The translations under genes and the position numbers were made by a program. Below, piece by piece: positions 11,842-36,887 of a stretch of 45,587 nucleotides of DNA. The notes below the pieces were generated by a model. It had not been told where the DNA came from and did no database searches. It saw only the letters and a program-made list of their open reading frames with translations. Origin of the DNA: Crocinitomicaceae bacterium (GTDB lineage Bacteria; Bacteroidota; Bacteroidia; Flavobacteriales_D; Crocinitomicaceae); NCBI GenBank assembly GCA_029247685.1, contig JAQWKT010000064.1:1-45587 (forward strand), read 5' to 3'. Position 1 is the first letter of the stretch. Each line of letters opens with the position of its first letter.

Positions 11842-12192
11842 ATGTTAATACAAGTTGTTAAATCAAAAATACATCGAGTTCGAGTAACCGAAGCAGAGTT
11901 AAATTATATTGGCAGCATTACCATCGACGAGAAATTGATGGAAGCATGCAACATGGTGGAAGGAGAGAAAGTACAGATTGTAAATATTAACAATGGACAG
12001 CGTTTAGAAACCTATACGATTAATGGAAAAGCTGGATCTGGGGTGATTTGTTTAAACGGACCAGCAGCAAGACTAGTTGCAGTAGATGATCCAATTATTA
12101 TTATTGCCTATGGGTTTATGGAAATGGAAGAAGCGAAATCGTTTAAACCTTCTATCATATTTCCGAATGAAGAAACTAACCAACTTTGCTAA
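11842..12192 (+). CDS. panD: Aspartate 1-decarboxylase
   Basis: PanD makes beta-alanine from aspartate for pantothenate and CoA synthesis. The ATG at 11842 (116 aa) gives the family's usual start [18 protein letters not shown]; a start 36 bases earlier is in frame but would add 12 residues and overlap the promoter box. The autocatalytic cleavage site Gly24-Ser25 (YIGS), which generates the pyruvoyl cofactor, is intact. NGPAARL (about residues 72-78) and the conserved VKSKIH N-terminus are present. The stop overlaps the ATG of the next gene (TAATG), so it is the first gene of a four-gene operon. No panC or panB is nearby. Confidence 0.95.
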
Positions 12193-33927: not shown

Positions 33928-34266
33928 ATGAGTGATTGCAATAAGTATATAAAAACACTTCACAAAAGTAAAGTTGGTTATGTCGCAAGACATGTTTGCG
34001 AAAATAAAATCATTTTATCTTTTGGAAATATTTTTTGTACTATTTCGGAAAAAGGATTTATAAATCTTTGTGCTGCTTTAAATGAAATTTCAAATGACAT
34101 TGAAAACCGAATTAACGACATGATTGATGGGGAAAAAGTTATTCTAAGCACCCCTGTTAAATACATTAATTTAACCTTTAGTCAAGATGAATTTTATGCG
34201 GTTCAGGATTTACTTGAGCAAGCAAAACTTTCTTTAGAAATCGAAAAACACTTTTCATTATCGTAA
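33928..34266 (+). CDS. Small conserved-looking protein of unknown function
   Basis: I use the ATG at 33928 (112 aa); the frame continues to a TTG 36 bases earlier. The product is soluble, without signal or membrane segment. It has a cysteine/histidine-bearing start (MSDCNKYIKTLHKSKVGYVARHVCENKIILSFGNIFCTISEKGF), where HVCENKIILSFGN could be a small metal-knuckle-like or strand region, and a helical C-terminus (DEFYAVQDLLEQAKLSLEIEKH). The layout resembles small Bacteroidota proteins of the DUF6686 kind, but this is a weak visual match. The riboswitch promoter begins 15 bases after its stop. Confidence 0.65.
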   Translation: MSDCNKYIKTLHKSKVGYVARHVCENKIILSFGNIFCTISEKGFINLCAALNEISNDIENRINDMIDGEKVILSTPVKYINLTFSQDEFYAVQDLLEQAKLSLEIEKHFSLS

Positions 34267-34280
34267 TCTAAAAATTTTAT

Positions 34281-34288
34281 TATTTTTG
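34281..34288 (+). promoter_or_regulatory. -7 promoter box of the riboswitch-TonB receptor unit
   Basis: TATTTTTG fits TAnnTTTG and lies 4 bases before the proposed 5' edge of the TPP aptamer (34293), the distance expected for a transcript starting at the first aptamer stem. No -33 TTG is clear. Confidence 0.55.
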
Positions 34289-34292
34289 TCGA

Positions 34293-34368
34293 GTCTCAAA
34301 AGGGGTGCCGTAAGGCTGAGATTACACCCATTGAACCTGTAGGATAATGCCTGCGCAGGGAAGATGAC
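34293..34368 (+). ncRNA. TPP (THI-box) riboswitch
   Basis: All conserved THI elements appear in order: GGGGTGCC (34302-34309), GGCTGAGA (34314-34321), ACCC (34326-34329), GAACCTG (34333-34339), GGATAATGCC (34342-34351) and GCGCAGGGAA (34353-34362). The variable P3 arm is reduced to a 3-bp stem closed by GTAA, a GNRA tetraloop. P1 is formed by GTCTC at 34293-34297 with GATGAC at 34363-34368, with one bulge. The riboswitch binds thiamine pyrophosphate and should repress the TonB receptor that follows 59 bases downstream. Confidence 0.97.
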
Positions 34369-34371
34369 AAA

Positions 34372-34403
34372 GCTAATTTTAAATCGTCAAGAATTAGCCC
34401 CTT
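34372..34403 (+). promoter_or_regulatory. Possible expression platform of the TPP riboswitch
   Basis: GCTAATT (34372-34378) can pair with AATTAGC (34392-34398) in a 7-bp hairpin. The adjoining CCCCTT (34398-34403) can instead pair with AAGGGG inside the aptamer (34300-34305); the two structures share base 34398. This could be the switch between bound and free states. The run after the hairpin is only moderately T-rich, so termination and translational control both remain open. Confidence 0.4.
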
Positions 34404-34427
34404 GTTCTTGTTTAATTTTTATTAAAA

Positions 34428-36887
34428 ATGAAAACAAGTATTTTATTTACCATTTTCTCTTTTTTATTTTTTTCTCATAGTATTGTTGGACAATACACCT
34501 ACTCTGGAAAGGTTACCGATGAAAAAGGAGAGCCGATACCATATGCCAAAATATATGGCAATAAGAATAAAGGAACTGTTTGTAATGAAAAAGGAATTTT
34601 TGAATTTAAAAGCAACTCTCCAGGTATTACGATTACTGCTATTGGATATGAAGAACAAAGACACATTTATTATCCTACATCCCAAAAAACTGAACTTATA
34701 ATTAAATTAAAAAGACAGGTTCAAAATCTTGAAACTGTTCACGTGATTGCAACACGACCACAAATAATTCCTAGCTCAGCAATCCTGATTAGTAAGAAAG
34801 GCGATCTGGAAAAAGACAACTTTGGGCAAGACCTTCCCATTCTTTTACAAAATACGCCATCTGTCGTTACGACCTCAGATGCTGGAGCTGGTGTTGGTTA
34901 TACAGGCATAAGAATTAGAGGTGTGGATGGAGAACGAATTAACGTGACTATTAATGGTATCCCCGTTAATGACCCAGAGTCTCATGGGGTTTGGTGGGTA
35001 AACATGCCCGATTTAATTGGATCAACAGATAATATCCTTGTTCAAAGAGGGGTTGGAACGTCAAGCAATGGCGCAGCATCCTTTGGAGCAAGTATCAATG
35101 TTAAAACCGACAACATTCGTGAAAAATCATATGCCGAAATTGACAATTCTGTAGGTAGTTTTAACACCTGGAAAAGTGGAGTTAAAGCTGGAACTGGACT
35201 AATAAATAACAAATTCTCCATGGATGTTCGTTTGTCAAGGATTTTAAGCGATGGCTATATTGATAGAGCAAGTTCGAATCTTAAATCTTTTTATTTATCT
35301 GGCTCTTATGTAGGAGAAAAATCTCTTGTTAAAGCGATTGCGTTTAGCGGAAAAGAAAGAACTTACCAATCTTGGTATGGGACTCCAGAAAGTAGACTTT
35401 TTGGAAATGGAGAGGAAATGAATGCCTATGCCGACAGAAATTATCTTTCGGATAGTGAACGCGAAAATTTACTTTCTGGTGGTCGAACATATAACTATTA
35501 CGAATATGAAAACGAAGTAGACAACTACCAACAAGACAATTATCAATTGCACTTTACACATGCTTTTTCATCAAAAGCAACACTAAATATTGCAGGACAC
35601 TACACCAAAGGAAGAGGATACTATGAGCAATACAAATACGACCAAAGCCTATCAGAATATGGACTAAACGATATTGTTTCTTCAAGTGATACCATTACTA
35701 GCACTGATTTAATTCGAAGAAGATGGTTAGATAACGATTTTATTGGCGGGGTTTATTCTTTATCGTATAAGATTAATGCAAATCTTGATTTAACCGTTGG
35801 TGGCGCAATAAACACCTACATTGGAAATCATTATGGAGAAATTATTTGGGCAAGAAATGCATCTAACAGTGAAGCTTATGACAAATACTATGACAACAAC
35901 GCACAAAAAACAGAAGCAAGTTCGTATTTAAAGGTTAACTATACAAAAAACAAATGGGCCGTTTATGGAGATCTTCAATATAGAGTTGTAAACTATAATT
36001 TTGGAGGGTTTGATGATGTTTCAGGAGACCTGATTGATATAGACCAGCAAGAAGTGTATGTTTTTTTGAATCCAAAAATTGGTACCTCCTACTCTCCTAA
36101 CGAAAACAACACCCTCTTTTTAAGCGCTGGAATTAGCCAAAGAGAACCGGTAAGAAAAGACTTTAGAGAAAGCTCCGTTAACAGCAGACCTAAACATGAA
36201 ATATTAAGAGATCTAGAACTTGGTCATTCATTGATTACTGATAAACTTAACCTATCAAGTAATATCTACTATATGAATTACATCGATCAGTTGATTAATA
36301 CCGGTAAAATAAATGATGTTGGTTCTTACACAAGAGTAAATGTAGACAACAGTTATAGAGCAGGAATAGAAATCAGCGCCATGTATAGAGTAATCAAATC
36401 TCTTTCCTTAAATGGATCTGTTGCATTAAGTCAAAACAAAATCGCCTCTTTTACAGAATATATAGACAACTATGATGATCCAAATTATGAACAAACACAA
36501 ATAGTTCATGAAAACACGGATATGGCTTTGTCTCCTAATCTAGTGGGAAACATTGGCTTTAGCTATGAACCAATTAAAAATTTAAGTTTTAACTGGATGA
36601 GCAAATACGTTGGCGAGCAGTTTTTGGATAATACCTCTAATAAAGACAATTACAATCGAAAAATTGATGCTTTTTCATATACCAACCTCTCATTAAATTA
36701 TACCCTTAATGATGTGTTATTTAAATCCATGACTTTTGGAGTGCAGTGCAATAACGTATTTAACACTTTATATTCAAACAATGGGTACACTTGGGGATAT
36801 ATTGCAGGAGGTCAAAGAACCGTGGAAAACTTCTACTATCCACAAGCTGGAAGAAACTTTATGGCCAGATTGTTAATTGAATTTTAA
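34428..36887 (+). CDS. TonB-dependent receptor, probable thiamin transporter
   Basis: The 819 aa outer-membrane protein has a signal peptide (MKTSILFTIFSFLFFSHSIVGQ), a carboxypeptidase-regulatory-like domain (about residues 23-100), a plug (about 115-225, with LPILLQNTPSVVTTSDAGAGVGYTGIRIRGVDGERINVTINGIPVNDPESHGV) and a long barrel ending in the aromatic-terminated NFMARLLIEF. The TPP riboswitch directly upstream is the basis for assigning thiamin or a thiamin precursor; Bacteroidota TonB receptors under THI control have been predicted before by comparative genomics. It is a single-gene unit, closed by a strong hairpin at 36902-36926. Confidence 0.9.
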   Translation: MKTSILFTIFSFLFFSHSIVGQYTYSGKVTDEKGEPIPYAKIYGNKNKGTVCNEKGIFEFKSNSPGITITAIGYEEQRHIYYPTSQKTELIIKLKRQVQNLETVHVIATRPQIIPSSAILISKKGDLEKDNFGQDLPILLQNTPSVVTTSDAGAGVGYTGIRIRGVDGERINVTINGIPVNDPESHGVWWVNMPDLIGSTDNILVQRGVGTSSNGAASFGASINVKTDNIREKSYAEIDNSVGSFNTWKSGVKAGTGLINNKFSMDVRLSRILSDGYIDRASSNLKSFYLSGSYVGEKSLVKAIAFSGKERTYQSWYGTPESRLFGNGEEMNAYADRNYLSDSERENLLSGGRTYNYYEYENEVDNYQQDNYQLHFTHAFSSKATLNIAGHYTKGRGYYEQYKYDQSLSEYGLNDIVSSSDTITSTDLIRRRWLDNDFIGGVYSLSYKINANLDLTVGGAINTYIGNHYGEIIWARNASNSEAYDKYYDNNAQKTEASSYLKVNYTKNKWAVYGDLQYRVVNYNFGGFDDVSGDLIDIDQQEVYVFLNPKIGTSYSPNENNTLFLSAGISQREPVRKDFRESSVNSRPKHEILRDLELGHSLITDKLNLSSNIYYMNYIDQLINTGKINDVGSYTRVNVDNSYRAGIEISAMYRVIKSLSLNGSVALSQNKIASFTEYIDNYDDPNYEQTQIVHENTDMALSPNLVGNIGFSYEPIKNLSFNWMSKYVGEQFLDNTSNKDNYNRKIDAFSYTNLSLNYTLNDVLFKSMTFGVQCNNVFNTLYSNNGYTWGYIAGGQRTVENFYYPQAGRNFMARLLIEF

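Follow-up and report, generated by a model that had tools for sequence, protein, structure and literature searches.

How can a TPP riboswitch control the translation of a gene in bacteria whose mRNAs carry no Shine-Dalgarno sequence? Bacteroidota mRNAs are of this kind, and in F. johnsoniae initiation is tuned by the structure of the start region (PMC6847099), so that the standard route of translational riboswitches does not apply. The aptamer, its target gene and, as far as the title of a preprint tells, translational control in Bacteroides as a general idea are already known (PMC5613172; title in PMC7366714). The 2017 study of thiamin uptake in B. thetaiotaomicron described the mode of action of the TPP switches as uncertain (PMC5613172), and the preprint (bioRxiv 867226, cited in PMC7366714) names in its title transcriptional or translational TPP control of Bacteroides receptors.

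In this work we focused on a TPP riboswitch preceding a TonB-dependent receptor gene in a window of 45,587 nucleotides from a Crocinitomicaceae bacterium. Comparison with related leaders suggests that in this marine Bacteroidota host the vitamin B1-sensing switch probably covers the start of the gene, using the gene's own first codons, when the vitamin is plentiful; under scarcity, an RNA arm would unfold the sensor. The pairings involved are named here and can be mutated, which makes the question of mechanism testable by point mutants.

Methods

Coordinates are those of the window, and all features described are on the + strand unless indicated. Pairings were evaluated in 135 receptor leaders, whose platform regions were clustered at 75% identity (43 clusters) or 65% identity (22 clusters). 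In the permutation test the mean duplex energy of the true partners was compared with the values obtained when partners were permuted among clusters 20,000 times. In the own-composition shuffles each arm was scrambled within its own composition in 200 trials. For an out-of-sample set, TPP loci were taken from 119 genomes across the class; 70 were fetched, and 62 leaders forming 40 clusters were used. These clusters came from other families of the class, and the segment definitions were left unchanged.

The aptamer and its promoter

The cmscan search gave a match to RF00059 (TPP riboswitch) at 34291-34379 with 55.6 bits (E 2.5e-8), just above the gathering score of 54.3 bits, and the covariance model thus upholds the original prediction of a TPP riboswitch. 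The binding-core motifs CTGAGA, ACCC and ACCTG are all present, the core is invariant across relatives, and 127 of 150 relatives have a match of the same type. Judged from its sequence, the segment is a genuine TPP riboswitch, and the genome (2.23 Mb, 83 contigs, 94% complete) has no other TPP match. Another genome of the genus (G021, leader L004) has a second TPP riboswitch, lying before a gene that resembles thiM by eye.

The 5' strand of P1, GTCTC (34293-34297), pairs with GATGAC (34363-34368) with one bulged T, and is conserved within the genus. In the RF00059 alignment P3 is a minimal arm, GCC-GTAA-GGC (34307-34316), as had been predicted from the window; relatives show GNRA variants, and the GNRA-closed minimal arm is the commonest form in the genus. 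The predicted promoter was also found in place: the -7 box TATTTTTG, of the TAnnTTTG type, occupies 34281-34288, and the P1 strand follows after a spacer of four bases (34289-34292). Of 135 related leaders, 119 keep the box at a similar position, where shuffled sequences would lead one to expect about 4. On inspection of the window, no convincing -33 TTTG element was seen.

The receptor gene

The open reading frame at 34428-36887 encodes 819 amino acids with TonB Plug (PF07715) and CarboxypepD_reg_2 (PF13715) domains, and is a probable outer-membrane thiamin/TPP receptor of the OMthi type. By motif search, the TPP motif lies 5' of 69 of the 74 receptor homologs that have upstream DNA. Control of TonB receptors by THI elements was reportedly predicted by Rodionov in 2002 (as cited in PMC5613172). 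Thiamin itself is the putative cargo, inferred from the regulation only.

The gene was expected to stand alone behind the riboswitch, and it does. Upstream, the DUF6686 ORF on the same strand stops at 34266, and the ATP-synthase genes that follow the receptor lie on the opposite strand, so that the receptor is a single-gene unit. A conserved gene neighbourhood was rejected: a search that did find the IspG and ATP-synthase markers in the window itself, as positive control, found none of them around the receptor in eight related loci. Riboswitch and receptor therefore look like a self-contained unit. One contig with a receptor homolog (L053) also carries a SAM riboswitch (RF00162, 56.7 bits) at 12039-12130.

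ThiC, the ThiE family and thiamin pyrophosphokinase (two models, PF04263 and TIGR01378) gave no match in this genome, and the same holds for nearly all of the 18 genus relatives. The genome does have a PnuC-family transporter, its PnuC-like gene being located on a different contig from the receptor (L175, 2933-3583, - strand). This picture fits a dependence on the uptake of thiamin or TPP; either a kinase of unknown family or uptake of TPP itself could account for the absence of a kinase match.

Pairings between the aptamer and its platform

The original prediction named two competing pairings downstream of the aptamer, and placed all four strands correctly: AAGGGG (34300-34305) with CCCCTT (34398-34403), and GCTAATT (34372-34378) with AATTAGC (34392-34398), AATTAGC and CCCCTT overlapping at base 34398. 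They fared differently.

AAGGGG is both the 5' strand of P2 and the 5' strand of the long-range pairing, here called helix B, with CCCCTT as its 3' strand. In the 43 clusters none of the 20,000 permutations was as good as the true partners (z -6.7), in the 22 clusters 7 of 20,000 were, and own-composition shuffles reached the true value in 0 of 200 trials. When the window is taken alone, the pairing is no better than with shuffled versions of its flank, and it is the relatives that lend it support. Within a 27-leader alignment it is nearly invariant, as the aptamer fixes GGGG, and covariation comes from wider relatives, with AAATAGGGG/CTCCTATTT, CAATGGG/CCCATTG and CATCGGGG/CCCCGGTG in place of the window's strands. 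The 40 independent clusters of the out-of-sample set again gave 0 of 20,000 (z -8.5). Helix B is thus strongly supported by covariation.

By eye, the out-of-sample leaders mostly precede thiS-like genes and not TonB receptors, and since helix B recurs in such a set, it looks class-wide, with an output part that appears to vary by gene. A relative from the class (L246) uses the complement of the aptamer's 5' end as the 5' arm of a terminator-like hairpin, followed by a T run; this hairpin is likely a terminator version of the same anti-aptamer. Five leaders (L092, L095, L096, L099 and L106) are much shorter, their ATG being reached about 70 nt after GAACCTG, and have no CCCC loop hairpin; there, TTTAGAA may pair instead with the CTCTAA preceding GGGG.

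A second hairpin, absent from the original prediction, displays CCCCTT in its loop. The arms of this hairpin C are CAAGAA (34388-34393) and TTCTTG (34405-34410). It scored 0 of 20,000 permutations at both clustering levels (z -7.8 in the 43 clusters) and 0 of 200 in own-composition shuffles. In the 27-leader alignment five of its six pairs show changes on both sides, and the pairing is kept with unrelated arms in L127 (ACAAGT/ACTTGT) and L171 (GGACTG/CAGTCC). Bacteroidales leaders have a long and stable hairpin C. Helix B and hairpin C together pair in 95.5% of cells of the alignment, against 44-71% when slid. In the out-of-sample set (62 leaders, 40 clusters), with only three TonB-like leaders, hairpin C was not significant (p about 0.15).

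Helix B formed inside the loop of hairpin C is a pseudoknot. Each of the two covaries in receptor leaders, and their simultaneous formation is putative. The B strand mostly adjoins the 3' arm of C, the offset between them being at most 1 nt in either direction in 14 of 21 clusters; this would suit coaxial stacking.

The GCTAATT/AATTAGC hairpin (hairpin A) held in part. Individually it is strong in the window, L118, L134 and L108, and such strength is confined to the genus and a small number of relatives. As a general counter-structure it was rejected, as its own-composition shuffles equalled it in 163 of 200 trials; permutations did as well in 199 of 20,000 cases in the 43 clusters (z -2.4) and in 1909 of 20,000 in the 22 clusters.

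A proposed hairpin over the start codon

A further hairpin missed in the original prediction, hairpin D, would close over the start codon by means of codons 2-4; hairpins C and D link CCCCTT to the gene. Its 5' arm CTTGTTT (34407-34413) overlaps the 3' arm of hairpin C, its 3' arm AAACAAG (34432-34438) lies within codons 2-4 of the receptor, and an inner stem joins 34415-34420 with 34424-34429. In the 43 clusters hairpin D gave 0 of 20,000 permutations (z -4.3) and 0 of 200 own-composition shuffles; the strictest clustering (22 clusters) gave 660 of 20,000, or p about 0.03. Taken together, hairpins A and D form pairs in 80% of cells; sliding lowers this to 43-52%. In Bacteroidales leaders no hairpin D is evident.

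Among the leaders, the first codons, ATGAAAACAAG, stay the same while later signal-peptide codons diverge. Receptors unlike one another start with MKTR or MKTS, with the near-fixed codons ATG AAA ACA AG(A/C/T) (34428-34439 in the window, and homologs), and the Thr codon is ACA in 65 of 65 cases, from genera including g1, g28, g8, g5 and g3. This suggests that the first receptor codons are conserved for RNA pairing and not for the protein. Where the codons differ, alternative start hairpins can be drawn, namely CATAATA/TATTATG in the L127 clade and ATTTGTAT/ATACAAATG in L108.

Hairpins C and D have bases 34407-34410 in common and are therefore mutually exclusive. Hairpin D covaries, yet folding energies are equivocal on whether the translation start is occluded. 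For the window's C state they predict no opening of the AUG, as it can be re-paired by the U-rich coding region; across 24 relatives, a modest opening of the start region is seen in 18-21. In relatives the D state is more stable than the C state by about 0 to 7 kcal/mol and helix B offers about 9 to 10, so that the energies agree in order with the mechanism proposed below.

Proposed mechanism and its alternatives

We consider it probable that this TPP riboswitch acts on translation: no Shine-Dalgarno sequence would be involved, and the start of the outer-membrane thiamin receptor gene would be closed by hairpin D. Comparative sequence analysis shows the parts from which such a switch could be built, namely the aptamer, helix B, hairpin C in receptor leaders and hairpin D in Flavobacteriales-type leaders. 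Without TPP, AAGGGG would pair with CCCCTT in the loop of hairpin C, which would hold the TTCTTG strand and block hairpin D, leaving the start codon open (ON). With TPP, the folded aptamer would keep AAGGGG in P2 and helix B would be lost; in this genus hairpin A would help to break hairpin C, and the freed strand would pair with codons 2-4, so that hairpin D closes over the AUG (OFF). TPP binding, the direction of the switch, occlusion of the start in cells and repression by TPP are inferred.

More tentative, and somewhat short of an even chance, is the wider proposal that the class Bacteroidia shares an undescribed TPP platform, in which an anti-aptamer strand, displayed in a loop in receptor genes, captures the 5' strand of P1/P2. 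The Flavobacteriales output would then be start closure by a codon 2-4 hairpin, replacing the masking of a Shine-Dalgarno sequence.

Helix B could be all that is needed, hairpins C and D being by-products of relatedness and AT-rich composition, with control exerted otherwise, for instance through RNA decay. The weakness of hairpin D at the strictest clustering, the lack of hairpin C out of sample and the start region that energies do not clearly open would all agree with this; however, the survival of the C pairing with unrelated arms, its 0 of 20,000 even in 22 clusters and the conservation of codons 2-4 at the DNA level make it rather unlikely. Transcriptional output, with hairpin A or D ending transcription directly or via Rho when TPP is bound, appears slightly less likely again. 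The biosynthetic TPP operon of B. thetaiotaomicron does shift at the mRNA level (PMC5613172), and in L246 the partner strand of helix B sits in the terminator-like hairpin with its T run. However, the OMthi mRNA of B. thetaiotaomicron shows no significant change on thiamin (PMC5613172), the start codon and codons 2-4 spanned by hairpin D would be an odd location for a terminator, and no intrinsic terminator was found in 34200-34600, which includes the region from aptamer to gene; a terminator-type transcriptional riboswitch was rejected on this ground.

The wiring could also be the opposite one, hairpin C with a free loop being the TPP-bound form that blocks translation, and helix B releasing it. 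The long and stable hairpin C of Bacteroidales leaders, where hairpin D is not evident, would suit such an arrangement, but hairpins C and D cannot coexist in Flavobacteriales-type leaders, where D alone covers the AUG, and we regard this wiring as very improbable. Start closure by hairpin D in the presence of TPP is the reading we prefer.

Comparison with known systems

In the literature searched, outside which most subscription papers and preprints lay, no description was found of a platform combining helix B with a start-codon hairpin. With the RF00059/THI element the present riboswitch shares the aptamer core, a score over the cut-off and control of a thiamin-linked gene, but its platform takes the 5' strand of P2 as its partner, whereas in a 2026 covariation model of terminator-type TPP switches only two nucleotides are common to aptamer and platform (PMC13273304). 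The leader of the B. thetaiotaomicron OMthi gene (BT2390), for which genetics support thiamin uptake (PMC5613172), likewise has a TPP riboswitch before a TonB thiamin receptor. The gut operon, however, often includes pnuT and tnr3, whereas the receptor here is alone and the PnuC-like gene is on another contig.

In the translational TPP riboswitches of E. coli thiM and thiB, the ligand controls exposure of the start, and it is the Shine-Dalgarno sequence that is hidden. Exposure of the translation start would be ligand-controlled here as well, but the start codon and first codons would be hidden instead; the thiB switch is cited in PMC13273304. In the adenosylcobalamin riboswitch, to which the proposed pseudoknot is comparable, a C-rich loop makes a long-range pseudoknot that governs gene control (PMC2258182), but there the ligand favours the loop pairing, whereas in the mechanism proposed here the loop pairing would compete with the aptamer.
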